NCBI RefSeq assembly: GCF_040183065.1
Contig: NC_091133.1
Location: 133,462,806 to 133,526,805, forward strand
From: Periplaneta americana
Taxonomy: Eukaryota > Arthropoda > Insecta > Blattodea > Blattidae
DNA length: 64,000 nt
Direction: 5' to 3'
Position 1 is the stretch's first letter; the number at the start of each line of letters is the position of its first letter. Below the pieces are notes generated by a model. It ran no database searches, was not told where the DNA came from, and saw nothing but the letters and a program-made list of their open reading frames with translations. The translations under genes and the position numbers were made by a program. Shown one piece after another: positions 3,001 through 58,467 of this stretch.

Positions 3001-5742
3001 GAATTTACTAATTCACATGATATTGTTTCTCACTATATGCCAAGTCAGCATGTTTTTCCTAACGCGCCCACTCAGCAAGTTTGCTTGTCCCCCAACCTGT
3101 CTCCTTAACCTGAATTTACTAATGCACATGATATTGCTTCTCACTATATGCCAAGTCAGCATGTTTTTCCTAACGTGCCCACTCAGCAAGTTTCCTTGTC
3201 CCCCAACCTGTCTCCTTAACTTGAATTTACTAATTCACATGATATTGTTTCTCGCTATATGCCACTTCAGCATGTTTTTCCTAACGTGCCCACTCAGCAA
3301 GTTTCCTGGTCCCCCATCCTGTCTCCTTAACCTGAATTTACTACTTCATGTGATATTGTTTCTTACTATATGCCAAGTCAGCATGTTTTTCCTAACGTGC
3401 CCACTCAGCAAGTTTCCTTGTCCCTCCACCTGTCTCCTTAACCTGAATATACTACTTCATATGATATTGTTTCTCACTATATGCCAAGTCAGCATGTTTT
3501 TCCTAACGTGCGCACTCAGCAAGTTTTCTTGTCCCCCATCCTGTCTCCTGAACCTGAATTTACTACTTCATGTGATATTGTTTCTCACTATATGCCAAGT
3601 CAGCATGTTTTTCCTAACGTGCCCACACAGCAAGTTTCCTTATCCCCATCCTGGCTCCTTAACCTCAATTTACTAATTTACATGATATTGTTTCTCACTA
3701 TATGCCAAGTCAGCATGTTTTTCATAACGTGCCCACTCAGCAAGTGTCCTTGTCCCCCAACCTGTCTCAACCTGAATTTACTAATTCACATGATATTGTT
3801 TCTCACTGTATGCCAAGTAAGCATGTTTTTCCTAACGTGCCCACTCAGCAAGATTCCTTGTCCCCCAACCTGTCTCCTTAACCTGAATTTACTAATTCAC
3901 ATGATATTGTTTCTCACTATATGCCAAGTCGGCCTGTTTTTCCTAACGTGCCCACTCAGCAAGTTTCCTTGTCCCCCAACCTGTCTCCTTAACCTGAATT
4001 TACTAATTCACATGATATTGTTTTTTACTATAAGCCAAGTCAGCATGTTTCTCCTATCTTGCCCAATCAGCAAGTTTCCTTGTCCCGCAACCTGTCTCCT
4101 TAACCTGATTATACTACTTCACACGATATTTTTTCTTACTGTATGGCAAGTTAACATGTTTTTCCTAACGTGCCCACTCAGCAAGTTTCCTTGTCTCCCA
4201 TCCTGTCTCCTTAACCTGAATTTACTAATTCACATGATATTGTTTCTCACTCTATGCCAACTCAGCATGTTTTTCCTAACGTGCCCACTCACCAAGTTTC
4301 CTTGTCCCCCCAACCTGTCTCCTTAACCTGAATATACTAATTGACATGATATTGTTTCCTGTTATATTCCAAGCCAGCATGTTTTTCCTAACGTGCCAAC
4401 TCAGCAAGTTTCCTTGTCCCCCAACCTGGCTTCTTAACCTGAATTTACTAATTCACATGATATTGTTTCTCACTATATGCCAAGTCAGCATGTTTTTCCT
4501 AACGCGCCCACTCAGCAAGTTTCCTTGTCCCCCAACCTGTCTCCTTAACCTGAATTTACTAATGCACATGATATTGCTTCTCACTATATGCCAAGTCAGC
4601 ATGTTTTTCCTAACGTGCCCACTCAGCAAGTTTCCTTGTCCCCCAACCTGTCTCCTTAACTTGAATTTACTAATTCACATGATATTGTTTCTCGCTATAT
4701 GCCACGTCAGCATGTTTTTCCTAACGTGCCCACTCAGCAAGTTTCCTGGTCCCCCATCCTGTCTCCTTAACCTGAATTTACTACTTCATGTGATATTGTT
4801 TCTTACTATATGCCAAGTCAGCATGTTTTTCCTAACGTGCCCACTCAGCAAGTTTCCTTGTCCCTCCACCTGTCTCCTTAACCTGAATATACTACTTCAT
4901 ATGATATTGTTTCTCACTATATGCCAAGTCAGCATGTTTTTCCTAACGTGCGCACTCAGCAAGTTTTCTTGTCCCCCATCCTGTCTCCTGAACCTGAATT
5001 TACTACTTCATGTGATATTGTTTCTCACTATATGCCAAGTCAGCATGTTTTTCCTAACGTGCCCACACAGCAAGTTTCCTTATCCCCATCCTGGCTCCTT
5101 AACCTCAATTTTCTAATTTACATGATATTGTTTCTCACTATATGCCAAGTCAGCATGTTTTTCATAACGTGCCCACTCAGCAAGTGTCCTTGTCCCCCAA
5201 CCTGTCTCAACCTGAATTTACTAATTCACATGATATTGTTTCTCACTGTATGCCAAGTAAGCATGGTTTTCCTAACGTGCCCACTCAGCAAGATTCCTTG
5301 TCCCCCAACCTGTCTCCTTAACCTGAATTTACTAATTCACATGATATTGTTTCTCACTATATGCCAAGTCGGCCTGTTTTTCCTAACGTGCCCACTCAGC
5401 AAGTTTCCTTGTCCCCCAACCTGTCTCCTTAACCTGAATTTACTAATTCACATGATATTGTTTCTCACTATATGCCAAGTCTGCATGTTTTTCCTAACGT
5501 GCCCACTCAGCAAGTTTCCTGGTCCCGCAACCTGTCTCCTTAACCTGAATTTACTAATTCACATGATATTGTTTCTTACTATAAGCCAAGTCAGCATGTT
5601 TCTCCTATCTTGCCCAATCAGCAAGTTTCCTTGTCCCGCAACCTGTCTCCTTAACCTGATTATACTACTTCACACGATATTTTTTCTTACTGTATGGCAA
5701 GTTAACATGTTTTTCGTAACTTGCCCACTCAGCAAGTTTCCT
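1..5742. repeat. 111-bp satellite array, about 52 monomers
   Basis: The segment is one continuous head-to-tail array that starts before the window and ends abruptly near 5742. The monomer is 111 bp: AACCTGAA recurs at 2, 113 and so on. Because 111 is 3 x 37, stop-free frames persist over many monomers on the + strand and translate into a 37-residue hydrophobic, Cys/Pro-rich period. These frames break wherever a monomer has an indel (for example near 2300 and 2650) or contains the TAA of CTTAACCTG in another frame. Monomers fall into sub-variants such as AATTCACATG versus ACTTCATGTG. No spacers or gene-like flanks are present. I see a satellite, not a gene. Confidence 0.95.
2716..5705. repeat. 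Higher-order duplication within the 111-bp satellite
   Basis: The block from about 2716 to 4155 is repeated almost base for base from about 4156 with an offset of 1,440 bp, close to 13 monomers. Diagnostic shared variants include TTTCCTGTTATATTCC at about 2916 and 4356, and TCCCTCCACC at about 3421 and 4861. The second copy gains one extra monomer at about 5450-5560, after which the offset becomes 1,551. Smaller repeats with offsets of about 997 and 775 bp are visible in the first 2 kb. This pattern indicates recent block amplification by unequal exchange. Confidence 0.85.
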
Positions 5743-6500
5743 GAGCAGACAAATTGTGCATAAGGGACACATTTAAATTTTACCAAAATTTCGACCCTAA
5801 ACACTAATCCTATGTTTTGAGGTACTGGCTCCTGTATAATTTTCTCAAAATTATTAACATCCCTCTCCACATCCCTGACCTGAACCTCATAAAATCGCTT
5901 GGCTGAACTGAAGTTACTAATACTAAAATCACCTTTAAAATGAAAAGGAGAATTAGAAAAAAAATAAATAAAGGATCTAAAATACCCACTGAAAACATTA
6001 ATACATTTCTAATATGCCACAAATCTTGACAGTTGTTAAGAAGAAGTGGATTTGCTACAGATCACTTAACGTTATTTATTTTCTACAGAGAATGATTTAA
6101 TTTAAATTTTGAAGTTTCCGAACATAAAGTGACTGTGATAATTGCCAATTTTTTTGTTATGAATTTATTTTTATACTTTATAATGAAGAATATACAGATT
6201 AATTTAGTTAGTAGTATCTTGAAAGAGGAATTGTCGACTTCTTATTTTTTTGTTCATATTAATCTGATTTTTTTTTATTCAGCTTCCTCCAAGTGAAGGC
6301 TTCCTAGAAGACAAAGCTTACCAAAAAATTGTTTGTTAAGTAAATGGTATATACACAATTATAAAGGAAAAAAAAACAATGGAGAAGGAAAAGAAAACGA
6401 AATAACGCAAGTATAAATAATTGAAGACGACTGAAGAAAAGATCATTAATTCCAGTAGAAACATAAAATTTCGGTAATTTCCTAGAAGACAGGCAAAATC
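5743..6500. other. AT-rich stretch without a recognised feature
   Basis: Low-complexity A/T-rich DNA directly after the satellite edge. Only short, unconvincing reading frames occur and no family motif was recognised on either strand. Confidence 0.6.
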
Positions 6501-6511
6501 CAACATGGCTG

Positions 6512-6630
6512 ACGAAAACTACCAAAAACGTTCTGCCAACTATGATGTCCAAATGTCGCCAAACACAAAATCAAAGATGAAAAATCATATAATCATATTT
6601 TTAAAGAAGAACAAGCCCTCCAAAAAAGTG

Positions 6631-6661
<31 letters not shown>

Positions 6662-6725
6662 TTTTTTTTGGAGTTTCGTGGCATTCGAACTTCATAGTTG
6701 GTAGTACTTTTCTGGCAGTTTTCGA
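6512..6725. repeat. Imperfect foldback (MITE-like) with A/T core
   Basis: The segment 6512-6556 is about 80 percent complementary to 6681-6725; the shared core CCAACTATGA is at 6535-6544 in one arm and inverted in the other. The loop holds an A-run, a TA-run and a T-run (6638-6669) that is itself nearly palindromic. Short reading frames here are accidental. It could be a degraded miniature inverted-repeat element; no target duplication was identified. Confidence 0.6.
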
Positions 6726-7265
6726 CCACACTTTACCCCTTAAAATCACTAAAACACAAAACAAAACATAATTTATCACCTCATCAAAATAAAATTCAAT
6801 TCTCATTGACGTCTTCATCGACAACCACTTCATTTCCAGTATGAATGACACAGGCTTTAAGGCAGTCTAAACTTAAACCAAGCAACAAAGAACTAAACCA
6901 ACACTTTGTCGTACAGTCAATTGTGCATAAATAAACCACGTCTTTACACTGACTGAAATTCTCTTCGAACACTTATTACACCTTAACATCTACAGAAAAT
7001 TCAGTAAATAATTCCTTTAAACCGCAGAAAAACAGTTTTCTCCTCTACATTCATCACAATTCTTATTCACCAGCGAAAGAACTAACCCAAAATCGTCACA
7101 AAATTTAATAAATAATTTCAGAACACGGATTCCTTCATTTCCCTCTTACTTCAAAATTCCAACCTTGTGCACACAAAATAAATTATTGGCACTGAAAAGT
7201 GCCTTTTCGTAAGCATGATGATGATGCGCATTCGACAAATGCAGAAAAATCTACAATGTAACATC
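6726..7265. other. AT-rich intergenic stretch
   Basis: No gene or element recognised. It contains one short hairpin (7188-7203), listed separately. Confidence 0.5.
7188..7203 (-). other. Histone-mRNA-like stem-loop, orphan
   Basis: On the minus strand the 16 bases read GGCACTTTTCAGTGCC: a 6-bp stem with a four-base TTTC loop and GG/CC stem ends, resembling the 3' stem-loop of replication-dependent histone mRNAs. No histone C-terminus is readable upstream on this strand and no purine-rich downstream element follows, so it may be chance or a relic. Confidence 0.25.
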
Positions 7266-7540
7266 ACTCACGTCAAACAACCAAGAACTGACGTCATTAT
7301 CCATTCAAAATTAATGAATATTCTAGAATAAATTACAACTATAAGGAATCAAATCGAAAGAAAATCACGAAAATCATAAAATGACAAACTTTCAATACCT
7401 TTAGCCATCAGGCACAACACAACACTACTCACGTCAAACAACCAAGAACAACTGAGAACGTCATTATCCATTCAAAATTAACGAAAATTCTAGAACAAAC
7501 CACAACTATAACCAATCAAATTAAAAGAAAATCACGGCGA
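7266..7540. repeat. Direct repeat of about 110 bp, spacing 161 bp
   Basis: ACTCACGTCAAACAACCAAG occurs at 7266 and at 7427. The following roughly 105 bp stays alignable (both copies contain CGTCATTATCCATTCAAAATTAA and a downstream AAAATCACG), with scattered substitutions. Nature unknown; it is a local duplication. Confidence 0.75.
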
Positions 7541-7738
7541 CACCTAATATTAAAAACCTAGAACTAACATGTATGTCACTAAAAATCATTAACATTTAAC
7601 TCTGAAATAAAAAAGTTGCTAATACTATATTCAACCAAATGCCCGTCTTCTATGAAATTACAAAAAATTCCTAGAACGGTATCCATTTGCTATCAAGTGA
7701 TCACAGTCGTCTATTTAGCACTAGTTGCAAGACCCACC

Positions 7739-7925
7739 TTAAGTGGGCAGATCGCCATAGGGAAGAGATCGATCTATTTTCGTGTAGAGATGGTTTCTTA
7801 GGATTTTTATAGATCCCTTCACTGCAGACAGAGATACTTCAGTGACAAGAGTTTGTCCTAGACCAACTGCTTGCAAAAATGCGCGAATCTTTTTGTGATG
7901 GTCCCTCTAGCCCCAATCAGTAATT
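7739..7925 (-). pseudogene. Non-LTR retrotransposon ORF, C-terminal relic
   Basis: Read on the minus strand, the segment opens with LIGARGTI and, after one frameshift near 7850, continues through ILRNHLY to a TAA at 7739-7741. The (L)IGARG..PKFF block followed by ILR/LS.H.(Y) is a conserved C-terminal stretch of certain LINE proteins; a better preserved example lies at 37018-37325 in this window. The upstream reverse transcriptase is missing. The relic is non-functional, and its flanks give no clue to the insertion boundaries. Confidence 0.6.
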
Positions 7926-10757: not shown

Positions 10758-10763
10758 ATACAC
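10758..10763. repeat. Target-site duplication ATACAC, left
   Basis: ATACAC lies immediately outside the AGTAGT terminus of the palindromic element; an identical ATACAC lies immediately outside the other terminus at 24838-24843. The sequences beyond the two copies differ, as expected for an insertion. Confidence 0.8.
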
Positions 10764-10817
10764 AGTAGTATACAAAGTGGACTGACGTCAAGGGTTGGAG
10801 GGTAGTGAGGGTCGGAG

Positions 10818-10941
10818 GGGGCGTGGCCAAATGAGGGATAGGGGAAACGGGGCGTGACCAAATGAGGGATAGGGGAAACGGGGTGTGGCCAAAAGAGGGA
10901 TAGGGGAAAGGGGGCGTGGTCAAAGGAGGGATAAGGGGAGC
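10818..10941 (+). promoter_or_regulatory. Subterminal 31-bp GC-box repeats, left end
   Basis: Four tandem units with a 31-bp period each contain GG[C/T]GTG[G/A]CC, AGGGATAGGGG and AAA[C/G]GGGG. The G-rich GGGGCGTGG core resembles Sp1/KLF-type binding boxes. The array sits about 55 bp inside the terminus, is mirrored at the other end, and is the most GC-rich part of the element. It may bind a transposase-like protein or act as an inward promoter: splice-donor-like GTGAGT sites follow at about 11307 and 11450. Function is inferred. Confidence 0.5.
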
Positions 10942-11059
10942 TGGTTTGTGATTGGTGAATGGGTATTTGCAAGCGAGTGGTGTGGGAAAGCGATTGACGA
11001 ATGAGCATGGAGAGAATGTTGAAATGAAGTGAAAGCTGTGTTACATAAGTTTCAAGGTC

Positions 11060-12355
11060 CATTGTTTGTTATGAAAGCTCTTGTTACGTAAGAGCCTAGG
11101 TAAATCACTCGATATTCGTGGATGTTTCGAATACACATGTTCCTGTAGGTCTTATTTGACACTTGTATTATTTTTTTTCGACCACCGCCTGTTCCCTGGC
11201 CAGTTGAAAATAATTTTCTGTTGTGAAATATGTATGAGTATGTATTACGCAGTCGGTTTAGCCATCTGTGTGAGAGGTGAATCCCGCACGTGGAAGTGAA
11301 AGTGAGTCCTCGACTATATGACATTGACTGGACGCAGCTGTCTGAAGCAGGACCCAACCAGTTCACCGCAGTTGAAAGAGAAAGTGTATCACCTTGGTGG
11401 AAGTAAAACAATGCATCAAATCGAATTCAAAAAGATGAAATAGCGGAATGGTGAGTAGAAATAAATAAAATTACTCAAATATGTGGAGAAAACTCAATTC
11501 TCACTTCAAAAATTACCTATGATTACTAGAAGGGAATAAAATGTACAGCATAATAACAATGAAGAAAACTCACTTCAACAGTCACCTGGTTGCTGTATTT
11601 AAAGAGGCATAAATAGCATGATTTATACTCTATCTATGGCTGGAAGTAAACATCTTTTACCTGATTCCAGACATTCGCGGAGCGGACTGTAATTTCTCAC
11701 ATCAGTTGTTAAAGTACAAAGGGATATACATAAAAAGACTTGGACTTTTGAAGATAGATTGACGCATAACCAGTCAGAGGAAGTAAAATCTTTCACCTTA
11801 CTCCTTCCTCAGAAAATTTAATAATAATAATAAAAATAAAAAAAAATAATAATAATAATAAATCCTTTTCCAAAAAATAAATGGTGTTTACATTTATAAT
11901 TACACGTCGTGATGCATAGATCTAACGCATGATTCTTATCAAAATGTACATCATTAATTACATTAATCAGTGCATCACATTCAGTTTTTTTTAAAAAACG
12001 TGACATTCATTTTTTAATAATTTTTTTTATGATCCGCGGTTGCTCTTGCTCTAACAAATGTTACTTTACTGTTATTATTTCATTGTTGTGATTATCACGA
12101 TAGCGTTATTAATAATGTGATGCATAGGCCTAAATCTAACCATGATTCTTATCAAAGTGCACATCATTAATTACATTAATCAGTTCATCACATTCAGTTT
12201 TTCAATCATTTAACTAGATTGTGGGCTTATTTTCATTTAATTGTTGTAATTACATGACGTTCCTGCACTCATAATTTACCCATACTATTCGTTTCCCATG
12301 TTTCTTAAAATAATATTTATGTGCCTAATTTCATCTTAATTTATTTTATTTACAT
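11060..12355. other. Arm segment without an identified gene
   Basis: Contains a 119-codon frame on the minus strand at 11052-11411 (mirrored at 24190-24549) with no recognisable domain, an AAT-rich tract at 11819-11862, and two copies of a GTGATGCAT/CATCACATTCAG repeat. Arm-to-arm conservation here says nothing about coding, because non-coding parts are just as similar. Confidence 0.5.
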
Positions 12356-12359
12356 AAAC

Positions 12360-12545
12360 AGTGATGCAGAATCGAGAGAGTTTGAGACTCGCATTGAGGT
12401 CATGGGTTCAAATTCTGTGGCCGACCATAAAGACAACTGCCAAATTGGAAATTTACATGTCATGATTCATCACCACCTCAATTGCCAATACGATAAACAT
12501 TAATCAAAATCTATAATTAGTTACATGAACACAAGCCATCTATGC
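12360..12545 (+). mobile_element. tRNA-derived SINE relic inside left arm
   Basis: GATGCAGAATCGAGAGAG is followed by a B-box-like GGGTTCAAATTC and a tail GGAAATTTACATGTCATGATTCATCACC...TAATCAAAATCTATAATTAGTTACATG. The same architecture with other substitutions occurs at 42130-42350 outside the palindrome, which identifies it as a dispersed SINE family. Partial copies recur in the arm at 13503-13590, 14985-15063, 15220-15302 and 16005-16170. Confidence 0.6.
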
Positions 12546-12620
12546 AAAAGGATGAGACAGTTCCAGAGATTCAAAGAATGCTGTTTAACATGTCTGTTTC
12601 GTGTGCTCATTTAATAACTG

Positions 12621-12650
12621 AGGGAGTAGCTCAATTGGTAGAGCGTTCGC
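12621..12650 (+). other. tRNA 5'-half-like sequence (A box)
   Basis: AGGGAGTAGCTCAATTGGTAGAGCG matches the acceptor/D-arm layout of a eukaryotic tRNA, including a full A box, but the anticodon and T arms are absent. It runs straight into the CATCACATTCAG repeat used elsewhere in the arm. It is a truncated tRNA or SINE head, mirrored at 22951-22980. Confidence 0.5.
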
Positions 12651-12884
12651 AGTGCATCACATTCAGTTTTTTTAATCATTTAACTAGATTGTGGGCTTAT
12701 TTTCATTTAATTGTTGTAATTACATGACGTTCCTGCGCTCATAATTTTCCCATACTATTCGTTTCCCATATCGCTGTAAAAACAACTCATTACGAAAATG
12801 ACTCCATCTATTCAATGTGGCCTTGCACAACAAACAGGGAATATTATCCATTTAACACTATTGTTATATGATATAATTAGTACA

Positions 12885-13185
12885 ATAATTAATGCAAGGT
12901 TTCATTAAATGGATCATTGAATAAATATACGCACTTAAAGAGGAAGTGCTAGTTTCCTCCCGCGAAGGAGATGAATTGTGTAACGTCATCACATCGATTG
13001 TTAAAAGTACAATACAATAATTAATGCAAGGTTTCATTAAATGTAAAATACTATCACTATTAATGATTAATTAATACAATTTGTTAAAACTACAATACAA
13101 TAATTAATGCAAGGTTTCATTAAATGGAAAATACTATCAGCATTAATGATTAATTAATACAATAAAACTAATGCCAGGTTTCATT
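12885..13185. repeat. Tandem duplications around AATTAATGCAAGGTTTCATTAA
   Basis: The motif TAATTAATGCAAGGTTTCATT occurs at about 12888, 13018 and 13103, with a shortened form at 13167. The two central units form a roughly 90-bp tandem pair, each including ACTATCA and ATTAATGATTAATTAATAC. Mirrored at about 22416-22716. Confidence 0.7.
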
Positions 13186-13658
13186 AAGGATCTACCTGCC
13201 GCGAGTCAACAACCTACAGTGCATGCAAGTAAACTTATTGTATCGGGTCCAAAGTCTCGAAGCCTGCTTATAAGTGAATCTAACATTGCAACATACGATT
13301 AGCTGTGTGTCTTTTAATGTTGCAATACTCTATCAGTCATCTCACGTTACAATAAGCTCAGTTATAGTATGTGAAAACTACATCACAATAATTCTCGTTA
13401 TATTTAATATGGTATTTGAGTTAAATATAAAAAAGAAGCTGATCAAATTCTCCCTGTTGGCTTAAAATATAAGTCTTTAAATGGAAATTATTGAATTATA
13501 AATAGATTATGATACACAACCGAGAGAGTTTGAGATTCGCTTCCGGGAGATCATGGGTTCAAAGTTTGTGGCCAACCAATCTGACTGAACTTTTTCATGG
13601 TTTCCTTAGATGTATATTACTATTGAGCTCACTGGAGCGGAGTTATTTTACAAAGGAC

Positions 13659-13920
13659 TAATTTTATCTATATGAGTCGGGTACAAGTGAAGATTGAATT
13701 TACAGTACGTAAGGTACTCTTTTACAGAGTGGAATTATTTCAACCTGAGTTACTAGTACGAAGGACGAAACTGGTAATTGGAATTAGATGCAATAGTCTG
13801 TAGTGCGATAATATGCACAAAAGAACTGAAGACTGTATCGAAATGAAAGGTCACAATTTCCAAAAATTTGTTTAAATACCGGTAACCATATAATGATTAT
13901 TTTTCAATTTAACTTCATAT
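13659..13920. repeat. 260-bp shared module, copy in left arm
   Basis: About 260 bp from AATTTTATC to TTTTTCAATTTAACTTCAT also occur in the right arm (21681-21942) and in two copies of an unrelated TA-flanked element (26996-27256 and 35336-35590). Shared landmarks are AGTGAAGATTGAATTTACAG, CTAGTACGAAGGACGAAACT, TGGAATTAG.T.CAATAGTCT and AACTGAAG.CTGTA. No reading frame is conserved. It may be an element nested in both hosts or a module exchanged between them. Confidence 0.8.
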
Positions 13921-14474
13921 CTGTCTATCGGGATGTTTGTTACCTTTTACACACAATAATGGTCGAACCGATAATATTAACATTGGAATATTATTTCGTT
14001 TTTTGCACTGTCTTTGTTGATTACTCCGAGTACACATATAACAGATTAATGACTGCTGATTAGATGTAATGAACTTACATTAGCCTACTGCATAATCATG
14101 TTGAAGCTCACATCCCAGCCACTCGACTGTGAAAGAGACACGTGTGAGAGTACCACATAACCCATGACCTTCCTTTAGATTTCTCAGTATGGTATTGAGT
14201 TCTCAAGGTCCATGTGTGCGTTGACTTTTACTTTCACCGCGCTAACCATGATTGAGAAATGGATAGAGAAAGTAAAATAACGAACTGTTGCATTAGCGAC
14301 AATTTTGAATGCTATCGTTAAATATAAAAAAGAAGTGGATCCAATGCAACAAGTTGTCTATAGCAAAGAATAGTTGGTTTGATGAGGATGATGTATTGAA
14401 ATAAAAACAAGTTTATGCACAAGTACTGTAAGTTTATTATGAGTAAATAAAAAGTATATAAAATATACTATTAT

Positions 14475-14831
14475 TATTTAAAGATCTCTTGCACACGTCT
14501 TCTTTTACATGGGGGTTCATAAAATCCATGTGGCACTCTATTAACACCATATTGTAATACAACACAATCACATATCCAACTACCACAATTTAAATCTGAT
14601 TATTGTTTCATGAAAATAAAGTCCCCACCTCTGTTTGGGGATTTTTTTGTTAAGACTAAAGTACTTTAAGTAATTACAGTCACATTTCCAGCTATCACAA
14701 CCACAATTTATCACAGTTCTGGAATTTGACGTTTCTTCTTTCTCATCCTCCTCCACATTCCAAGTACGTATAATCATATTACCCTTTCCTACATTCCAGG
14801 TATCTGATACAACATTCGCTTTTCCTTTCAA
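14475..14831 (-). pseudogene. Cys-rich reading frame, left-arm copy (frameshifted)
   Basis: Mirror of 20770-21126. The minus-strand frame begins at an alternative TTG (no ATG) and runs through NCGCDSWKCDCNYLKYF. An extra A in the A-run near 14647 then shifts it into a different tail that ends at about 14580. The right arm lacks this extra A. See the right-arm entry for the full description. Function unknown. Confidence 0.4.
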
Positions 14832-14933
14832 TGCTTCTGGTTGACACCGACTGTATCTAACGCTACTGAAAACACTGTGGTAGCTCCTTTATTTATTGCT
14901 CAGGTGTTTCCTTAGATGCATACGATAATATAT

Positions 14934-15425
14934 ATGTACCTAATTTCATTTTAATTTATTTTATTTACATAAAAATGATGCAGAACCGAGAAAGTATGAG
15001 ACCCGCATCGAGGAGGTCACGGGTTCAAATTCTGTGACCGAGTATAAAGACAACTGCCCTTCCGCTCCACTCCTAAGATGTTAATTCCAACATTATCGAA
15101 TACAACCATCATCTACACCTCATTACCTATGTTAAAATAAAACATTTCTGACACCGATTGTATCTAACGCTACTGAATATGTACCTAATTTCATTTTAAT
15201 TTATTTTATTTACATAAACAATGATGCAGAACCGAGAGAGTATGAGACTCACATTGAGGAGGTCACGGGTTCAAATTCTGTGGTCGACTATAAAGACAAC
15301 TGCCCTTCCGCTCCACTCCTAAGATGTTAATTCCAACATTATCGAATACAAACATCATCTACACCTTATTACCTATGTTAAAATAAAACATGTTTGACAC
15401 CGATTGTATCTAACGCTATTGAAAA
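14934..15425. repeat. 246-bp tandem duplication in left arm
   Basis: Two successive units carry TACCTAATTTCATTTTAATT, a GATGCAGAACCGAGA(A/G)AGTATGAGAC...GGGTTCAAATTC SINE fragment, GACAACTGCCCTTCCGCTCC and GACACCGATTGTATCTAACG. GACAACTGCCC starts at 15049 and at 15295. Mirrored at 20176-20667. Confidence 0.8.
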
Positions 15426-15445
15426 CACTGTGGTAGCTCCTTTAT

Positions 15446-15990
15446 TTATTGCTCTGGTGTTTCCTTAGATTCATATGAGTAATTTAGCATTGAGCTCACT
15501 ATTTTAAAAAGTGTCACGAAATAACGTTCCTGCGCTTATAATTTACCCAAACTATTCGTTTCCCATGTTCCTTAAAATAATATATATGTACCTAATTTCA
15601 TTTTAATTCATTTTATTTACATAAAAAATGATGGTTATTGCTCTGGTGTTTCCTTAGATGCATAAGAGTAATTCAGCATTGAGCTCACTATTTTAAAAAG
15701 TGTCACGAAATAACGTTCCTGCGCTGATAATTTACCCACACTATTCGTTTCCCATGTTCCTTGAAATAATATATATGTACCTAATTTCATTTTAATTAAT
15801 TTTATTTACATAAAAAATTATGGTTATTGCTCTGGTGTTTCCTTAGATGCATATGAGTAATTTAGCATTGAGCTCACTATTTTAAAAAGTGTCACGAAAT
15901 AACGTTCCTGCGCTCATAATTTACCCACACTATTCGTTTCCCATGTTCCTTAAAATAATATATATGTACCTAATTTCATCTTAATTTATT
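15446..15990. repeat. 189-bp tandem repeat, nearly three units, left arm
   Basis: TTATTGCTCTGGTGTTTCCT starts at 15446, 15635 and 15824 (period 189). Each unit continues through GAGCTCACTATTTTAAAAAG, AACGTTCCTGCGCT and CTATTCGTTTCCCATGTTCC. Mirrored at 19611-20155. Confidence 0.85.
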
Positions 15991-16223
15991 TTATTTACAT
16001 AAACAATGATGCGCAACCGAGAGAGTATGAGACTCGCATTGAGGAGGTCACGGGTTCAAATTCTGTGGCCGAATATAAAGACGACTGCCAGATTGGAATT
16101 TACATGTCATGATTCATCACCACCCCAATTACCAATACGATAAACATTAATCAAAATCTATAATTAGTTATGGTTACGTCACCTTTCTCGGGGTTGGTTG
16201 CTATCCCAACATGAACATCTGGC

Positions 16224-16632
16224 ATGGTTGCACAACCGACCTCTGGAGCGGATGCTGTCCCAATGGTGGCGCCAACATCCAGTCAAGTATGTTCTGGATC
16301 TGTGTTTGCGTTATCGGATAGAGCTTTCAAAAATCGTTTGAAGACTTATATTGCTCTAAATCTAACAAATCATGAGAGTGAATTAAAAGATATTTGAGAC
16401 TGCATCACTGATGAAATCCGAGACATTTTAAAGAGACATTTAAGTGAGTACTCTGCTTTAAAATTTAACATATTTGTTGAGCAAAATATAAAAAAAACGT
16501 AATGCTATTTCAATAAATGTTTTTGCACTTGACGAGAATGATTATGTATTTCCTCTCAGGATGTGCGAAATGGAATTACCAAATCACAGGGCTTTGTTAT
16601 ACATTAGTAATGATAGAGAGTTTTGGATTTGA
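16224..16632 (+). pseudogene. Polinton-type DNA polymerase B, N-terminal relic (left arm)
   Basis: From ATG 16224 the frame reads through SDRAFKNRLKTYIALN to TGA at 16395, resumes in the same frame as IRDILKRHLSEYSALKFNIF, and stops at 16500. A +1-frame piece (ISINVFALDENDYVFPLRM, then HRALLYISNDREFWI) ends at 16630. The order AFK.R(L/I).TY, then a helix with ALK(F/V)N, then (Y/F)PLR followed by H..LLYI is that of the region ahead of the exonuclease domain in Polinton protein-primed PolB. The exonuclease and polymerase motifs are absent. The same stops occur in the other arm. The family call is by eye and needs a profile search. Confidence 0.55.
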
Positions 16633-16874
16633 AATACACAAGTTCATTATATGTTTGTATGACGAATGGTATAAAACCTGAGGATATGGAAGCATGATTG
16701 AGAGTCATGAATGTCACAATTGTGTGAATGTTAATGATTAAACTGAACCTAGTCATTGTGGATTGAGGATGGGGATGTGCTTGTTAAAAGAAAATAGTAA
16801 CAAAATAACATTATATGTATATATTGATTCATAAAAAAAAATAACATGCAGTGAGTATTCAAATACTTTTTCAG

Positions 16875-17063
16875 TTAGTGAATTCCAAGACAATCCATTT
16901 CTTCCAAATTATACACATAACTGGTGATAAATTGTTCCAAGAATTCTTTCTTTTCCACACCCTTTGTATAAATACACTGAATCAGCATCATTGTAATTAA
17001 CATAACCAATACGATTAGTTTCACGGCGTCCAGTGACGGGGTGGTTTCAGCATAAAACAGCAT
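16875..17063 (-). CDS. Small single-pass membrane protein ORF, left-arm copy
   Basis: 62 codons from the ATG at 17063. Mirror of 18537-18725 with a few amino-acid changes (ETTPSL versus ETIPSL, and LITMML versus LIAMML). See the right-arm entry. Confidence 0.35.
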   Translation of the reverse strand: MLFYAETTPSLDAVKLIVLVMLITMMLIQCIYTKGVEKKEFLEQFITSYVYNLEEMDCLGIH

Positions 17064-17145
17064 CCTTGCTGTAAATTCCCGTGGAGACGGCAAGTTCTTT
17101 TAAAATACAGTGTTGTTTATTCAAGCTTCTTGGAAACCTTGTACG

Positions 17146-17479
17146 TCAGTTATCATAATGGACATCCTGAAACAAAATAAAAGCGGCGTAGCATGATACC
17201 TATTGTAAATTGTATAATGTCACAGAAAAGAAAAACGCAAACACATATACTTACATTTTTAAACATATGATATGAATAAAAGCACTTTATACATAACCCA
17301 ATAAGACACTTTGAACATTGTGTTCGAACAATGCTCTTACACCCTTTTTGAGCACATCTCTTCCTCCCTTTCAATGGGATATATTGAACCCAATGATTTA
17401 TACAATCATATCGAGATACTCCATCATATGTAATCGGGGAAGAAGTTAGTTGCACACCCAGTTTCTCTGTCCCCATCAT
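17146..17479 (-). pseudogene. piggyBac-like Cys-rich C-terminal exons, left-arm copy
   Basis: Mirror of 18121-18454 with the same intron borders. It encodes the same CAQKGC, CSKC, C..CF...H cluster. Continuous frame also extends upstream to about 17524 into the core minisatellite edge, which is not part of the gene. See the right-arm entry. Confidence 0.5.
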
Positions 17480-17515
17480 TGCAAATGATGCGAAAATGGA
17501 ATTCTTGTTACATAT

Positions 17516-18085
17516 ATACAACAACTTGTCGAAAATGTGACCTATATTTTACAATATGTTGAAAATGTGACATGTATGCAACAACTTGTTGAAAATGTGA
17601 CCTATATGTAACAATATGTTGAAAAATGTGACATGTATGCAACACCTTGTCGAAAATGTGACCTATATGTAACAATATGTTGAAAATGTGACATGTATGC
17701 AACAACTTGTCGAAAATGTGACCTATATGTAACAATATGTTGAAAATGTGACCTATATGTAACAATTTGTCGAAAATGTGACCTATATGTAACAATATGT
17801 TGAAAATGTGACATGTATGCAACAACTTGTCGAAAATGTGACCTATATGTAACAATATGTTGAAAATGTGACATGTATGCAACAACTTGTCCAAAATGTG
17901 ACGTACATGTAACAATATGTTGAAAATGTAACATGTATGGAACAACTTGTAGAAAATGTGACCTATACGTAACAAAATGATGAAAATGTGACCTATATGT
18001 AACAACTTGTCGAAAATGTGACCTATATGTAACAATATGTTGAAAATGTGACATGTTTGCAAAAACTTGTCGAAAATGTGACCTA
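17516..18085. repeat. Core minisatellite of the palindrome, 30/60-bp units
   Basis: About 19 half-units of 30 bp alternate as (A) CAACTTGTCGAAAATGTGAC plus CTATATGTAA and (B) CAATATGTTGAAAATGTGAC plus ATGTATGCAA, giving a 60-bp dimer. All units point the same way, so the core is asymmetric even though the arms mirror one another. The 60-bp period keeps all minus-strand frames largely open (HIGHIFDKLL / HTCHIFNILL pattern); this is periodicity, not a protein. It occupies the place where upstream exons of the piggyBac-like gene would be. Confidence 0.9.
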
Positions 18086-18120
18086 TATGTAACAAGAATT
18101 CCATTTTCGCATCATTTGCA

Positions 18121-18454
18121 ATGATGGGGACAGAGAAACTGGGTGTGCAACTAACTTCTTCCCCGATTACATATGATGGAGTATCTCGATATGATTGTAT
18201 AAATCATTGGGTTCAATATATCCCATTGAAAGGGAGGAAGAGATGTGCTCAAAAAGGGTGTAAGAGCATTGTTCGAACACAATGTTCAAAGTGTCTTATT
18301 GGGTTATGTATAAAGTGCTTTTATTCATATCATATGTTTAAAAATGTAAGTATATGTGTTTGCGTTTTTCTTTTCTGTGACATTATACAATTTACAATAG
18401 GTATCATGCTACGCCGCTTTTATTTTGTTTCAGGATGTCCATTATGATAACTGA
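18121..18454 (+). pseudogene. piggyBac-like transposase, Cys-rich C-terminal exons
   Basis: From ATG 18121 the exon encodes 75 residues: SRYDCINHW, then RKRCAQKGCKSIVRTQCSKC, then LIGLCIKCFYSYH. The spacing C-x4-C, C-x2-C, C-x2-C-F-x3-H follows the zinc-binding tail of piggyBac-family (DDE_Tnp_1_7) transposases. The exon stops at a textbook donor (AAT|GTAAGT, 18346). An 88-bp intron ends TTTTGTTTCAG at 18433, and a phase-0 exon adds six residues and TGA at 18452. AATAAA follows at 18479. The catalytic core is missing, replaced upstream by minisatellite. Both arms are intact here, which suggests recent origin or gene conversion. Another Cys-rich transposase family is possible. Confidence 0.55.
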
Positions 18455-18536
18455 CGTACAAGGTTTCCAAGAAGCTTGAATAAACAACACTGTATTTTAA
18501 AAGAACTTGCCGTCTCCACGGGAATTTACAGCAAGG

Positions 18537-18725
18537 ATGCTGTTTTATGCTGAAACCATCCCGTCACTGGACGCCGTGAAACTAATCGTATTGGTTATGT
18601 TAATTGCAATGATGCTGATTCAGTGTATTTATACAAAGGGTGTGGAAAAGAAAGAATTCTTGGAACAATTTATCACCAGTTATGTGTATAATTTGGAAGA
18701 AATGGATTGTCTTGGAATTCACTAA
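18537..18725 (+). CDS. Small single-pass membrane protein ORF, right-arm copy
   Basis: An open frame of 62 codons from ATG 18537, just after the AATAAA of the piggyBac-like exons and on the same strand. It has one strongly hydrophobic segment (KLIVLVMLIAMMLIQCIY, about residues 15-32), then a charged C-terminus (KGVEKKEFLEQF... to LEEMDCLGIH). An ACAG just upstream could be a splice acceptor, so this might be a terminal exon. Both arms keep the frame open with only substitutions. I do not recognise the family, and it may be fortuitous. Confidence 0.35.
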   Translation: MLFYAETIPSLDAVKLIVLVMLIAMMLIQCIYTKGVEKKEFLEQFITSYVYNLEEMDCLGIH

Positions 18726-18968
18726 CTGAAAAAGTATTTGAATACTCACTACATGTTATTTTTTTTTTATGAATCAATATATACATATAATGTTATTTTG
18801 TTACTATTTTCTTTTAACAAGCACATCCCCATCCTCAATCCACAATGACTAGGTTCAGTTTAATCATTAACATTCACACAATTGTGACATTCATGACTCT
18901 CAATCATGCTTCCATATCCTCAGGTTTTATACCATTCGTCATACAAACATATAATGAACTTGTGTATT

Positions 18969-19377
18969 TCAAATCCAAAACTCTCTATCATTACTAATGT
19001 ATAACAAAGCCCTGTGATTTGGTAATTCCATTTCGCACATCCTGAGAGGAAATACATAATCATTCTCGTCAAGTGCAAAAACATTTATTGAAATAGCATT
19101 ACGTTTTTTTTATATTTTGCTCAACAAATATGTTAAATTTTAAAGCAGAGTACTCACTTAAATGTCTCTTTAAAATGTCTCGGATTTCATCAGTGATGCA
19201 GTCTCAAATATCTTTTAATTCACTCTCATGATTTGTTAGATTTAGAGCAATATAAGTCTTCAAACGATTTTTGAAAGCTCTATCCGATAACGCAAACACA
19301 GATCCAGAACATACTTGACTGGATGTTGGCGCCACCATTGGGACAGCATCCGCTCCAGAGGTCGGTTGTGCAACCAT
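18969..19377 (-). pseudogene. Polinton-type DNA polymerase B, N-terminal relic (right arm)
   Basis: Mirror of 16224-16632 with the same reading frame, the same internal TGA (GATATTTGAGAC on the minus strand) and the same later frame change. Since both arms share each disabling change, decay came before the arm duplication or was spread by conversion. Confidence 0.55.
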
Positions 19378-19610
19378 GCCAGATGTTCATGTTGGGATAG
19401 CAACCAACCCCGAGAAAGGTGACGTAACCATAACTAATTATAGATTTTGATTAATGTTTATCGTATTGGTAATTGGGGTGGTGATGAATCATGACATGTA
19501 AATTCCAATCTGGCAGTCGTCTTTATATTCGGCCACAGAATTTGAACCCGTGACCTCCTCAATGCGAGTCTCATACTCTCTCGGTTGCGCATCATTGTTT
19601 ATGTAAATAA

Positions 19611-20667
19611 AATAAATTAAGATGAAATTAGGTACATATATATTATTTTAAGGAACATGGGAAACGAATAGTGTGGGTAAATTATGAGCGCAGGAACGTT
19701 ATTTCGTGACACTTTTTAAAATAGTGAGCTCAATGCTAAATTACTCATATGCATCTAAGGAAACACCAGAGCAATAACCATAATTTTTTATGTAAATAAA
19801 ATTAATTAAAATGAAATTAGGTACATATATATTATTTCAAGGAACATGGGAAACGAATAGTGTGGGTAAATTATCAGCGCAGGAACGTTATTTCGTGACA
19901 CTTTTTAAAATAGTGAGCTCAATGCTGAATTACTCTTATGCATCTAAGGAAACACCAGAGCAATAACCATCATTTTTTATGTAAATAAAATGAATTAAAA
20001 TGAAATTAGGTACATATATATTATTTTAAGGAACATGGGAAACGAATAGTTTGGGTAAATTATAAGCGCAGGAACGTTATTTCGTGACACTTTTTAAAAT
20101 AGTGAGCTCAATGCTAAATTACTCATATGAATCTAAGGAAACACCAGAGCAATAAATAAAGGAGCTACCACAGTGTTTTCAATAGCGTTAGATACAATCG
20201 GTGTCAAACATGTTTTATTTTAACATAGGTAATAAGGTGTAGATGATGTTTGTATTCGATAATGTTGGAATTAACATCTTAGGAGTGGAGCGGAAGGGCA
20301 GTTGTCTTTATAGTCGACCACAGAATTTGAACCCGTGACCTCCTCAATGTGAGTCTCATACTCTCTCGGTTCTGCATCATTGTTTATGTAAATAAAATAA
20401 ATTAAAATGAAATTAGGTACATATTCAGTAGCGTTAGATACAATCGGTGTCAGAAATGTTTTATTTTAACATAGGTAATGAGGTGTAGATGATGGTTGTA
20501 TTCGATAATGTTGGAATTAACATCTTAGGAGTGGAGCGGAAGGGCAGTTGTCTTTATACTCGGTCACAGAATTTGAACCCGTGACCTCCTCGATGCGGGT
20601 CTCATACTCTCTCGGTTCTGCATCATTTTTATGTAAATAAAATAAATTAAAATGAAATTAGGTACAT
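19611..20667. repeat. Mirror of the 189-bp and 246-bp tandem repeats (right arm)
   Basis: The same repeat blocks as 14934-15990, in reverse orientation and order. Confidence 0.8.
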
Positions 20668-20769
20668 ATATATTATCGTATGCATCTAAGGAAACACCTG
20701 AGCAATAAATAAAGGAGCTACCACAGTGTTTTCAGTAGCGTTAGATACAGTCGGTGTCAACCAGAAGCA

Positions 20770-21126
20770 TTGAAAGGAAAAGCGAATGTTGTATCAGATA
20801 CCTGGAATGTAGGAAAGGGTAATATGATTATACGTACTTGGAATGTGGAGGAGGATGAGAAAGAAGAAACGTCAAATTTCAGAACTGTGATAAATTGTGG
20901 TTGTGATAGCTGGAAATGTGACTGTAATTACTTAAAGTACTTTAGTCTTAACAAAAAATCCCCAAACAGAGGTGGGGACTTTATTTTCATGAAACAATAA
21001 TCAGATTTAAATTGTGGTAGTTGGATATGTGATTGTGTTGTATTACAATATGGTGTTAATAGAGTGCCACATGGATTTTATGAACCCCCATGTAAAAGAA
21101 GACGTGTGCAAGAGATCTTTAAATAA
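20770..21126 (+). pseudogene. Cys-rich reading frame with twin motif, right-arm copy
   Basis: A continuous frame of 119 codons has one in-frame TAA (20998-21000). The first part is acidic in the middle (NVEEDEKEETSN) and contains NCGCDSWKCDCNYLKY. After the TAA a second similar motif appears (NCGSWICDCVVLQY), then PPCKRRRVQEIFK, a basic cluster like a nuclear localisation signal, and a TAA at 21124. AATAAA follows at 21162. No ATG starts the frame; it opens after a TAA upstream, near a TTTTCAG acceptor-like site, so it may be a 3' exon. Family not recognised. The left arm carries a frameshift at a different site. Confidence 0.4.
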
Positions 21127-21680
21127 TAATAGTATATTTTATATACTTTTTATTTACTCATAATAAACTTACAGTACTTGTGCATAAACTTGTTTTTATT
21201 TCAATACATCATCCTCATCAAACCAACTATTCTTTGCTATAGACAACTTGTTGCATTGGATCCACTTCTTTTTTATATTTAACGATAGCATTCAAAATTG
21301 TCGCTAATGCAACAGTTCGTTATTTTACTTTCTCTATCCATTTCTCAATCATGGTTAGCGCGGTGAAAGTAAAAGTCAACGCACACATGGACCTTGAGAA
21401 CTCAATACCATACTGAGAAATCTAAAGGAAGGTCATGGGTTATGTGGTACTCTCACACGTGTCTCTTTCACAGTCGAGTGGCTGGGATGTGAGCTTCAAC
21501 ATGATTATGCAGTAGGCTAATGTAAGTTCATTACATCTAATCAGCAGTCATTAATCTGTTATATGTGTACTCGGAGTAATCAACAAAGACAGTGCAAAAA
21601 ACGAAATAATATTCCAATGTTAATATTATCGGTTCGACCATTATTGTGTGTAAAAGGTAACAAACATCCCGATAGACAGA

Positions 21681-21942
21681 TATGAAGTTAAATTGAAAAA
21701 TAATCATTATATGGTTACCGGTATTTAAACAAATTTTTGGAAATTGTGACCTTTCATTTCGATACAGTCTTCAGTTCTTTTGTGCATATTATCGCACTAC
21801 AGACTATTGCATCTAATTCCAATTACCAGTTTCGTCCTTCGTACTAGTAACTCAGGTTGAAATAATTCCACTCTGTAAAAGAGTACCTTACGTACTGTAA
21901 ATTCAATCTTCACTTGTACCCGACTCATATAGATAAAATTAG
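21681..21942. repeat. 260-bp shared module, copy in right arm
   Basis: Reverse complement of 13659-13920; same module as in the two TA-flanked elements. Confidence 0.8.
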
Positions 21943-22415
21943 TCCTTTGTAAAATAACTCCGCTCCAGTGAGCTCAATAGTAATATACATCTAAGGAAAC
22001 CATGAAAAAGTTCAGTCAGATTGGTTGGCCACAAACTTTGAACCCATGATCTCCCGGAAGCGAATCTCAAACTCTCTCGGTTGTGTATCATAATCTATTT
22101 ATAATTCAATAATTTCCATTTAAAGACTTATATTTTAAGCCAACAGGGAGAATTTGATCAGCTTCTTTTTTATATTTAACTCAAATACCATATTAAATAT
22201 AACGAGAATTATTGTGATGTAGTTTTCACATACTATAACTGAGCTTATTGTAACGTGAGATGACTGATAGAGTATTGCAACATTAAAAGACACACAGCTA
22301 ATCGTATGTTGCAATGTTAGATTCACTTATAAGCAGGCTTCGAGACTTTGGACCCGATACAATAAGTTTACTTGCATGCACTGTAGGTTGTTGACTCGCG
22401 GCAGGTAGATCCTTA

Positions 22416-24530
22416 ATGAAACCTGGCATTAGTTTTATTGTATTAATTAATCATTAATGCTGATAGTATTTTCCATTTAATGAAACCTTGCATTAATTAT
22501 TGTATTGTAGTTTTAACAAATTGTATTAATTAATCATTAATAGTGATAGTATTTTACATTTAATGAAACCTTGCATTAATTATTGTATTGTACTTTTAAC
22601 AATCGATGTGATGACGTTACACAATTCATCTCCTTCGCGGGAGGAAACTAGCACTTCCTCTTTAAGTGCGTATATTTATTCAATGATCCATTTAATGAAA
22701 CCTTGCATTAATTATTGTACTAATTATATCATATAACAATAGTGTTAAATGGATAATATTCCCTGTTTGTTGTGCAAGGCCACATTGAATAGATGGAGTC
22801 ATTTTCGTAATGAGTTGTTTTTACAGCGATATGGGAAACGAATAGTATGGGAAAATTATGAGCGCAGGAACGTCATGTAATTACAACAATTAAATGAAAA
22901 TAAGCCCACAATCTAGTTAAATGATTAAAAAAACTGAATGTGATGCACTGCGAACGCTCTACCAATTGAGCTACTCCCTCAGTTATTAAATGAGCACACG
23001 AAACAGACATGTTAAACAGCATTCTTTGAATCTCTGGAACTGTCTCATCCTTTTGCATAGATGGCTTGTGTTCATGTAACTAATTATAGATTTTGATTAA
23101 TGTTTATCGTATTGGCAATTGAGGTGGTGATGAATCATGACATGTAAATTTCCAATTTGGCAGTTGTCTTTATGGTCGGCCACAGAATTTGAACCCATGA
23201 CCTCAATGCGAGTCTCAAACTCTCTCGATTCTGCATCACTGTTTATGTAAATAAAATAAATTAAGATGAAATTAGGCACATAAATATTATTTTAAGAAAC
23301 ATGGGAAACGAATAGTATGGGTAAATTATGAGTGCAGGAACGTCATGTAATTACAACAATTAAATGAAAATAAGCCCACAATCTAGTTAAATGATTGAAA
23401 AACTGAATGTGATGAACTGATTAATGTAATTAATGATGTGCACTTTGATAAGAATCATGGTTAGATTTAGGCCTATGCATCACATTATTAATAACGCTAT
23501 CGTGATAATCACAACAATGAAATAATAACAGTAAAGTAACATTTGTTAGAGCAAGAGCAACCGCGGATCATAAAAAAAATTATTAAAAAATGAATGTCAC
23601 GTTTTTTAAAAAAAACTGAATGTGATGCACTGATTAATGTAATTAATGATGTACATTTTGATAAGAATCATGCGTTAGATCTATGCATCACGACGTGTAA
23701 TTATAAATGTAAACACCATTTATTTTTTGGAAAAGGATTTATTATTATTATTATTTTTTTTTTATTTTTATTATTATTATTAAATTTTCTGAGGAAGGAG
23801 TAAGGTGAAAGATTTTACTTCCTCTGACTGGTTATGCGTCAATCTATCTTCAAAAGTCCAAGTCTTTTTATGTATATCCCTTTGTACTTTAACAACTGAT
23901 GTGAGAAATTACAGTCCGCTCCGCGAATGTCTGGAATCAGGTAAAAGATGTTTACTTCCAGCCATAGATAGAGTATAAATCATGCTATTTATGCCTCTTT
24001 AAATACAGCAACCAGGTGACTGTTGAAGTGAGTTTTCTTCATTGTTATTATGCTGTACATTTTATTCCCTTCTAGTAATCATAGGTAATTTTTGAAGTGA
24101 GAATTGAGTTTTCTCCACATATTTGAGTAATTTTATTTATTTCTACTCACCATTCCGCTATTTCATCTTTTTGAATTCGATTTGATGCATTGTTTTACTT
24201 CCACCAAGGTGATACACTTTCTCTTTCAACTGCGGTGAACTGGTTGGGTCCTGCTTCAGACAGCTGCGTCCAGTCAATGTCATATAGTCGAGGACTCACT
24301 TTCACTTCCTCGTGCGGGATTCACCTCTCACACAGATGGCTAAACCGACTGCGTAATACATACTCATACATATTTCACAACAGAAAATTATTTTCAACTG
24401 GCCAGGGAACAGGCGGTGGTCGAAAAAAAATAATACAAGTGTCAAATAAGACCTACAGGAACATGTGTATTCGAAACATCCACGCATATCGAGTGATTTA
24501 CCTTGGCTCTTACGTAACAAGAGCTTTCAT
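22416..24530. repeat. Mirror of left-arm repeats, SINE and tRNA half (right arm)
   Basis: Inverted copies of the AATTAATGCAAGGTTTCATTAA tandem block (22416-22716), the tRNA 5'-half (22951-22980), the SINE relic (about 23056-23241) and the unassigned outer arm segment with its 119-codon frame (24190-24549). Confidence 0.75.
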
Positions 24531-24659
24531 AACAAACAATGGACCTTGAAACTTATGTAACACAGCTTTCACTTCATTTCAACATTCTCTCCATGCTCAT
24601 TCGTCAATCGCTTTCCCACACCACTCGCTTGCAAATACCCATTCACCAATCACAAACCA

Positions 24660-24783
24660 GCTCCCCTTATCCCTCCTTTGACCACGCCCCCTTTCCCCTA
24701 TCCCTCTTTTGGCCACACCCCGTTTCCCCTATCCCTCATTTGGTCACGCCCCGTTTCCCCTATCCCTCATTTGGCCACGCCCC
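24660..24783 (-). promoter_or_regulatory. Subterminal 31-bp GC-box repeats, right end
   Basis: Mirror of 10818-10941: four units with CC[A/G]C[A/G]CCCC and CCCCTATCCCT, about 55 bp from the ACTACT terminus. Confidence 0.5.
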
Positions 24784-24837
24784 CTCCGACCCTCACTACC
24801 CTCCAACCCTTGACGTCAGTCCACTTTGTAGACTACT

Positions 24838-24843
24838 ATACAC
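24838..24843. repeat. Target-site duplication ATACAC, right
   Basis: Directly follows the ACTACT terminus; matches 10758-10763 exactly. Confidence 0.8.
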
Positions 24844-58225: not shown

Positions 58226-58467
58226 AAAGCAAAGATGTATTGATAATTACTTTCAAATATTTATTGACATATAAAAAAATTGTAAAATGTATATTTTTAT
58301 GTAAATTCAGTTCTAACAACCAGGAAGGTGTGTCCAGAATTTTGAACTAATTCATGAGAGCCTATGTTCGTACAAACAATGAATTACTTACATAAAAATC
58401 CGCTCCCTGATTATAAGACACCAGAAAATAGACAAAACCGTTTTCGCCCATCACATACTCTGTTTAG

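Follow-up and report, generated by a model that had tools for sequence, protein, structure and literature searches.

A 14-kb palindrome in Periplaneta americana is probably a non-autonomous satellite of Polinton/Maverick elements

The DNA analysed here, called the window, is a stretch of 64,000 nucleotides of Periplaneta americana (NCBI RefSeq assembly GCF_040183065.1, contig NC_091133.1, forward-strand positions 133,462,806 to 133,526,805) bearing a near-perfect palindrome of 14,074 bp at positions 10764-24837, which we consider to be probably a satellite of Polinton/Maverick elements. A reading made earlier from the letters alone (the sequence-only reading) had described a palindrome of about 14 kb at this place, and BLAST of the window against itself, in which the element matched its own reverse complement end to end, together with alignment of its halves, bore this out. 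Outside the loop the two arms (Table 1) differ by nine substitutions and three one-base indels. They mirror each other around a minisatellite, as had been described, but the loop is 590 bp long and not 570 bp. The palindrome’s edges do coincide with transposon-like ends and a target duplication: the termini read AGTAGT...ACTACT (left end AGTAGTATACAAAG; right end, read inward, AGTAGTCTACAAAG), ATACAC stands directly outside both, and beyond it the left and right flanks are unrelated to each other. The longest open frame in the arms is about 131 codons, frames running through the loop repeat excepted. Of the autonomous gene set (own PolB, integrase, capsid and ATPase), the arms carry only fragments of the probable integrase/PolB region, along with one small open reading frame (ORF).

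The palindrome has many copies in the host genome, which was searched over 3.23 Gb in 91 contigs. A 437-bp end query, for which 40 of 203 candidates were scored, returned 42 matches, most of them in facing pairs with 13.5-16.5 kb between them, and an inner-arm query gave 42 matches in the same pattern (40 of 475 candidates scored). The exact end word T2/T3 occurred 53 times forward and 52 times in reverse, against 1 and 2 for a backward control, and the T1 word occurred 24 times in each direction, against 0 and 0; pairing of the T2/T3 word used 100 of its 105 places. Ten further copies were fetched as overlapping 10-kb stretches, of which eight have two complete arms, one (C7b) has a right end that runs into N, and one (C4) is a chimera. 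We also read the outer 2.5 kb of C13, the outer 2.5 kb and the centre of C6b, and 500-bp samples taken 3 kb in from each end of 21 further end pairs and two autonomous controls; 13 of the end pairs proved palindromic and neither control did. Confirmed palindromic insertions therefore number 25 (nine with full arms, the window copy included, then C7b, C13, C6b and the 13 sampled), a count that takes in fetched copies only and excludes pairs merely inferred from matches.

The confirmed palindromes range from 13.56 to 16.47 kb, and the sampled subfamilies lie about 2, 5, 8 and 10% from the window copy, with C2a at about 22% over 450 bases. Target duplications were perfect in 12 of the 13 elements with both flanks read (11 palindromes, one chimera and one autonomous copy), the exception being C13, with one mismatch. 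Three terminal variants occur, and C12a bears a different one on each side within a perfect duplication, GTCTTA; a facing pair at G000:C1:113930965-113944941 has differing variants per side in the same way. Copies with AGTAGT ends and 6-bp duplications, which the sequence-only reading had suggested looking for in this genome, are thus present, and so is a parental element. Structure varies among the copies. C6b is colinear with the window arm over its first 1,270 bp, patchwork after that and colinear again in its inner part, and an end pair at G000:C11:129086438-129101477 has inner-arm matches ordered + - + -, its palindrome centre seemingly duplicated again, as though through a second turn-back of the strand. 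Three end pairs of 10-15 kb (C3b, C5d and C16a, at G000 C3:86.8 Mb, C5:114.9 Mb and C16:90.4 Mb) have a left 3-kb sample unlike both the window arm and the Polinton piece compared, which suggests other derivatives or captured DNA.

The parent in the same genome is a Polinton/Maverick of about 16.8 kb with the same ends, for which profile matches indicate PolB, a double-jelly-roll (DJR) capsid protein, a packaging ATPase and a probable integrase tail. Polintons are known to work with PolB and a retroviral-type integrase, as an excerpt of PMC6431247 describes. Full-length helpers were counted by the PolB search alone: with 91 of 115 candidates scored, the PF03175 profile matches the genome at 54 places, and when all 54 places and both end words were considered, nine of 60 same-end facing pairs held a PolB match. 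Seven of the nine measure 16.5-17.0 kb, made up of six pairs of 16.5-16.9 kb and the chimera C4, whose left part is palindrome. The helper genes were read in pieces from different copies. L083, the left 9 kb of an autonomous copy on C12, encodes a DJR capsid protein (1.7e-99), one gene without a family, a PLA2-like gene (1.3e-12) and a packaging ATPase (Pox_A32, 1.4e-5; 25.1 bits, cut-off 22.8), and this C12 copy has the capsid/ATPase part and a PolB match in one element. L024, the right part as read in C4, holds a PolB frame convergent to a probable integrase frame. The polymerase stretch scored 97.7 and 98.4 bits. The frame ending that we take to be probably the integrase tail has sub-threshold matches only, to an IS481-type transposase end (7e-05, 22.5 bits, cut-off 224) and a chromodomain (0.0031, 17.9 bits, cut-off 25.1), with HP1-type chromodomains listed at 0.0038 and above in a PDB search.

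Another autonomous copy lies on C7, flanked by the duplication TACATA; its terminal repeats, about 540-580 bp long, share 90% identity. A protein search with the capsid protein returned 1,009 relatives, and among the 120 listed, those naming an organism were insects (three); a scan of viral contigs found no relative of this protein. The PolB frame at L024 4858-8502 also has a recombination endonuclease VII match N-terminal to the polymerase stretch (24.1 bits, cut-off 23.6), and a 21.2-kb pair with T1 ends and a PolB match (G000:C1:222975342-222996509) places the T1 variant on a polymerase-bearing element as well. Judged from these sequences, the Polinton assignment rests on polymerase, capsid, ATPase, ends and duplications, and it agrees with the family that had been named for the element. 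Because the palindrome shares the ends, the 6-bp duplications and gene fragments of this coding parent, we file it as a non-autonomous Polinton derivative.

Alignment to the parent indicates what the arm is made of. The terminal repeat comes first, followed by pieces of the parent’s non-coding left part, partly shuffled and repeated, and from the parent’s right half the arm holds the probable integrase frame end and two pieces of the PolB frame. The parental block between 4073 and 7324, which contains the capsid gene, the gene without a family and the PLA2-like gene, is unmatched in the arm. Counting short repeated motifs, the two parent pieces compared account for 2,964 of the arm’s 6,742 bases. 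From these alignments the arm is a broadly colinear but deleted, shuffled and capsid-less left half of the parent, running from the terminal repeat to a tandem array in mid-element. That array consists of 38-bp units at 7,606-7,839, just past position 7,579, where the arm’s matches end; its units contain inverted repeats, and its neighbours are a small divergent ORF on one side and, on the other, the ATPase gene, the frame of which begins within the array’s end. The loop aligns with it in the same direction at a score of 42 (shuffle maximum 36, n=200) and in the opposite direction at 27 (shuffle maximum 33), and since the loop minisatellite resembles the parental array, the turn-around falls in that array’s counterpart. 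All 11 copies compared share the same loop array, 52-949 bp long, and nine share both of its edges, C8 and C5b being shortened; C6b carries the array too. Because the loops are one homologous array, the palindrome has a single origin. The sequence-only reading had terminal inverted repeats (TIRs) expanding to cover the whole element. The whole element is indeed an inverted repeat, but it did not simply grow from its ends: the arm is the parent’s left half without the capsid block, which favours a head-to-head dimer over creeping TIR growth. By eye, tRNA-like half sequences (TAGCTCAATTGGTAGAGC) can be made out at window 12621-12650, in the arm, and at L083 2268-2469, where the left part of the autonomous element has a tandem repeat; Rfam gave no match in the arm.

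The two arms of a copy change together. Over full length they diverge by 0.04-0.27% within a copy (nine copies), while copies differ from one another by up to 10% and more and rearrangements are present in both arms. In the outer arms, C13 differs by 0.41% and C6b by 1 of 2,497 bases despite its rearranged arms; in the 500-bp samples, 12 of 13 palindromes are 100% identical arm to arm and one is 99.77%. For 10 of the 13 the closest sequence is the copy’s own other arm, and in C1c, C16c and C5c another copy is equal or slightly closer. We counted variable sites in the nine copies with both full arms, leaving out C4, C7b, gapped columns and columns past position 6705 of the window arm, at the loop edge, where C8 and C5b differ. 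Of 160 gap-free variable sites, 93 are found in both arms of a single copy and nowhere else, 39 occur in one arm only and 28 are shared by several copies; no site separates the arms on one side of the loop from those on the other. At 15 of the 28 shared sites a copy’s two arms disagree; that copy is C12a, and all 15 fall in its first 50 bp. A tree placed the two arms as sisters in eight of nine copies, C12a being the exception, with a FastTree warning that the method is unsuited to such close sequences.

Changes confined to one arm persist: there are nine such sites in the window copy and 11 in C7a, and repeat copies have been lost from one arm of C7a (246 bp) and C12b (189 bp). Together with C13, whose decayed duplication goes with the most diverged arms among those measured over at least 2.4 kb, these changes suggest that arms diverge after insertion. 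The TIRs of full-length elements behave otherwise. Within one autonomous copy they differ at 10 of 255 bases and within the chimera at 10 of 275, as against 4 of 256 between the left TIRs of two copies and 5 of 275 between the right ends of C7 and C4. In the one autonomous copy with both ends and the one chimera available, TIRs within a copy are thus not closer than those between copies.

Palindromes also recombine with full-length elements. The chimera C4 (16,991 bp, duplication CTTGGA) consists of a left arm, the loop and about half a right arm, followed by a probable integrase tail and PolB, and its right end shares 98.6% identity with an autonomous copy in the final 438 bases and 99.8% in the adjoining 1,108. 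A second chimera is probable at G000:C15:64046643-64064334 (C15a), where, in two 500-bp samples, the left is autonomous-like and the right is 99.8% identical to the palindrome arm of C1c. Element sizes cluster. Of the 60 same-end facing pairs, which take in autonomous and non-palindromic elements and were counted by intact end words only, 52 (36 of 41 and 16 of 19) measure 13.3-17.0 kb, palindromic or not, and the other eight measure 2.3, 3.8, 8.8, 10.1, 10.7, 17.7, 20.1 and 21.2 kb. A packaging or replication size window would explain both this clustering and the persistence of a half of about 7 kb as a dimer.

The many copies with Polinton ends and 6-bp duplications, the parent in the same genome, the make-up of the arm, the turn-around in the array, the identity of the arms and the recombination with full-length elements are observations, and the account of them that we consider probable is that the palindrome is a non-autonomous Polinton satellite, a head-to-head dimer of the left half, mobilised by a helper and with arms renewed during replication. 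On this account a replicating strand would have snapped back within the tandem array, in which the parental units carry inverted repeats, and so turned a capsid-less left half into a head-to-head dimer. Having a terminus at both ends, the dimer could be replicated, and perhaps packaged, by the helper’s PolB, ATPase and capsid, and inserted by the helper’s integrase. The displaced single strand would fold into a hairpin in which one arm templates or mismatch-corrects the other before insertion, so that new mutations and rearrangements would appear in both arms. Dimerising may also restore a half of about 7 kb to the size range that the helper handles. Small adenovirus vectors dimerise into packaging range, and the likeness to these protein-primed linear genomes, whose dimers regain a packable size, is an analogy only. 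More tentatively, and with somewhat less than even confidence, we suggest that these elements could form a lasting, inherited family of defective-interfering-like genomes, hairpin-forming, capsid-less and helper-dependent, their arms rebuilt at replication and their size kept within 13.5-16.5 kb by the packaging range of the helper. In that case the palindromes would preserve, as fossils in the genome, both Polinton particles and a single-stranded intermediate of replication.

The main rival to renewal at replication is that chromosomal gene conversion between the arms has kept them alike after insertion, which we consider unlikely. Arms of Y-chromosome palindromes are kept alike by gene conversion, arms of 6.7 kb lying about 600 bp apart should be good partners for it, and it would equally yield near-identical arms. 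Three copies are rich in private sites found in both arms compared with sites in one arm (25 vs 1 in C5b, 17 vs 3 in C12b, 11 vs 1 in C6a), and even in C4 the truncated arms show just 2 differences over 3,381 aligned bases, a 223-bp deletion aside; both facts suit conversion. It fits less well with the persisting one-arm changes and with C13, where the arms are the most diverged, and subfamilies about 10% from the window are still 100% identical arm to arm in separate insertions, as far as the 500-bp samples reach. That conversion predicts the same near-identity is one of several points that weigh against our preferred account. The differing outer 50 bp of C12a indicate that the process that keeps arms alike is imperfect. 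The contrast with autonomous TIRs rests on few, short and far-apart repeats, and left and right TIRs are not cleanly separate, the C12 left TIR being 97.8% identical to the C4 right end (6 of 275 bases differ). Eight of the 21 sampled end pairs are not palindromic; at least C13b and C9b resemble full-length elements on their left side, and in C1a only the left side shows a window-type arm. PF03175 was absent from the listings when the whole PolB frame or two longer pieces of it were scanned. Finally, the size clustering could instead reflect the recent spread of a few lineages.

For the first formation of the palindrome, recombination between two opposite-orientation elements, or nested insertion of one in another, is an alternative to snap-back that we regard as somewhat unlikely. 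C4 and probably C15a do record recombination between palindromes and full-length elements, and the arm is itself a patchwork in which the PolB pieces are inverted relative to the probable integrase end. Against this, the 11 loops are one homologous array that stops at the same two edges in nine of them and recurs in C6b, which points to one origin, and an array with inverted-repeat units at the parental counterpart favours fold-back without proving it. The sequence-only reading had raised a long hairpin RNA and cruciform extrusion as consequences, and the arms may give rise to either. That the palindrome has been retained because such a transcript feeds host small RNAs and so tames the Polinton nevertheless seems improbable to us. 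Exact 21-mer matches to the arm occur at 480 positions in three parent pieces, some in the PolB-bearing frame, against 0 in an equal-length control, and they make small-RNA action on the parent, PolB included, possible; however, they divide into 268 in the left 9 kb, 101 in the right part and 111 in the right end, so that 379 lie in the right end or in the left 9 kb, where they are mostly non-coding, and the element’s spread is explained without a small-RNA role. Chance origin of the palindrome is excluded, and an artefact of fold-back chimeric reads or collapsed copies is very unlikely. Assembly may cross-correct very similar arms, and the arms here are highly similar, but flanks differ between insertions, duplications are perfect in all but one of the elements with both flanks read, loop lengths vary, arm differences are specific to each copy, the two autonomous controls from the same assembly are not palindromic, and the palindrome stops exactly at the transposon ends.

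The palindrome is a real and unusual form of Polinton derivative, and no palindromic Polinton was found in the literature searched. Its (AGT)2//(ACT)2 ends and 6-bp duplications are those of vertebrate Mavericks, but the TIRs of intact vertebrate elements measure 46-1,447 bp (passages of PMC8097293), whereas here arms of 6,742 bp make up the whole element and no core gene is intact. Adeno-associated virus (AAV), a parvovirus, has hairpin termini and Rep. Its snapback defective genomes, as outlined in an excerpt of PMC8235507, are helper-derived, self-complementary half genomes with a replication terminus, sometimes with a single-stranded loop, and the palindrome has the corresponding form, a self-complementary half genome with the terminus at the open end. 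It differs in being an integrated Polinton derivative and a stable, inherited, multi-copy family. Foldback/Galileo elements likewise consist largely or only of long inverted repeats and form chimeric copies by recombination (part of PMC3573991), whereas the present element has Polinton ends, duplication length and gene fragments, and its arms change together per insertion; the frames scanned gave no P-type transposase match, and the genes encoded by the helper that shares these ends are those of a Polinton. Polinton replication and virions have so far been inferred mainly from gene content, and as of 2021 Maverick particles had not been observed, according to the abstract of PMC8097293. A palindromic satellite with co-changing arms would be a natural record of how this replicon is copied, through hairpin strands, template switching and possibly size-selected packaging, and if the arms are identical at insertion, their divergence could act as a built-in clock, like that of retroviral long terminal repeats.

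The small ORF of the arm does not appear to encode a conserved protein, and we rejected that idea: the ORF looks close to unconstrained. Against the parent it has dN 0.18 and dS 0.36 (74 codons), and over 22 palindrome arm copies it has 11 variable sites, eight of them at codon position 1 or 2, so that constraint among the palindromes shows no clear sign in these comparisons. The zinc-ribbon label is one we presumptively gave it, without any family match, and Pfam, NCBIfam and PDB searches gave no support for a domain in it. A piggyBac origin, suggested by this zinc-ribbon-like ORF, was also rejected: the duplications are 6 bp long and varied, not TTAA, and the ORF’s counterpart lies inside the Polinton.

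Table 1. Features of the palindrome, in window coordinates
Feature	Position	Strand	Remarks
Left arm	10764..17505	+	6,742 bp; self-BLAST and alignment of halves
Right arm	18096..24837	-	6,742 bp; 12 differences from left arm
Loop	17506..18095	.	590-bp directional minisatellite, 30/60-bp units
Left target-site duplication	10758..10763	.	ATACAC
Right target-site duplication	24838..24843	.	ATACAC
TIR-homologous terminal repeat	10782..11040	+	arm 19-277; 94-96% to autonomous Polinton TIR
G-rich 31-bp repeats	10818-10939		within left TIR-homologous part
Mirror of TIR-homologous part	24561..24819	-	repeats at 24662-24785
Patchwork	11909..12768	+	arm 1146-2005; pieces homologous to autonomous left-part 1761-3296, order partly shuffled
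Probable integrase frame end and convergent PolB 3' end	14364..14559	+	arm 3601-3796; 88.5% to L024 4741-4940; mirror ~21042-21237
Two pieces of PolB-bearing frame	16170..16613	+	arm 5407-5850; 92.6% to L024 8421-8111 and 88% to 7680-7550; mirror ~18988-19431
Autonomous 3891-4073 joined to 7324-7579	17068..17505	+	arm 6305-6742; mirror ~18096-18533
Small zinc-ribbon-like ORF (MMGTEKLG...)	17153..17479	-	counterpart of small ORF in autonomous element
Mirror copy of small ORF	18121..18447	+	

Elsewhere in the window, positions 1-5742 hold about 52 copies of a 111-bp satellite unit, in an array that runs past the left window edge, and positions 49357-50232 hold 38 copies of a 23-bp minisatellite (96% matches). 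Rfam identified three tRNA genes (33134-33205, 33378-33449 and 63353-63425), and a Tc5-type transposase C-terminal match just below the curated cut-off lies near tRNA genes, at 33917-34318. Related retroelement fragments occur at 30713-31669, 42848-43504, 52727-53662 and 57342-58226, some with reverse-transcriptase matches and some as inverted pairs.

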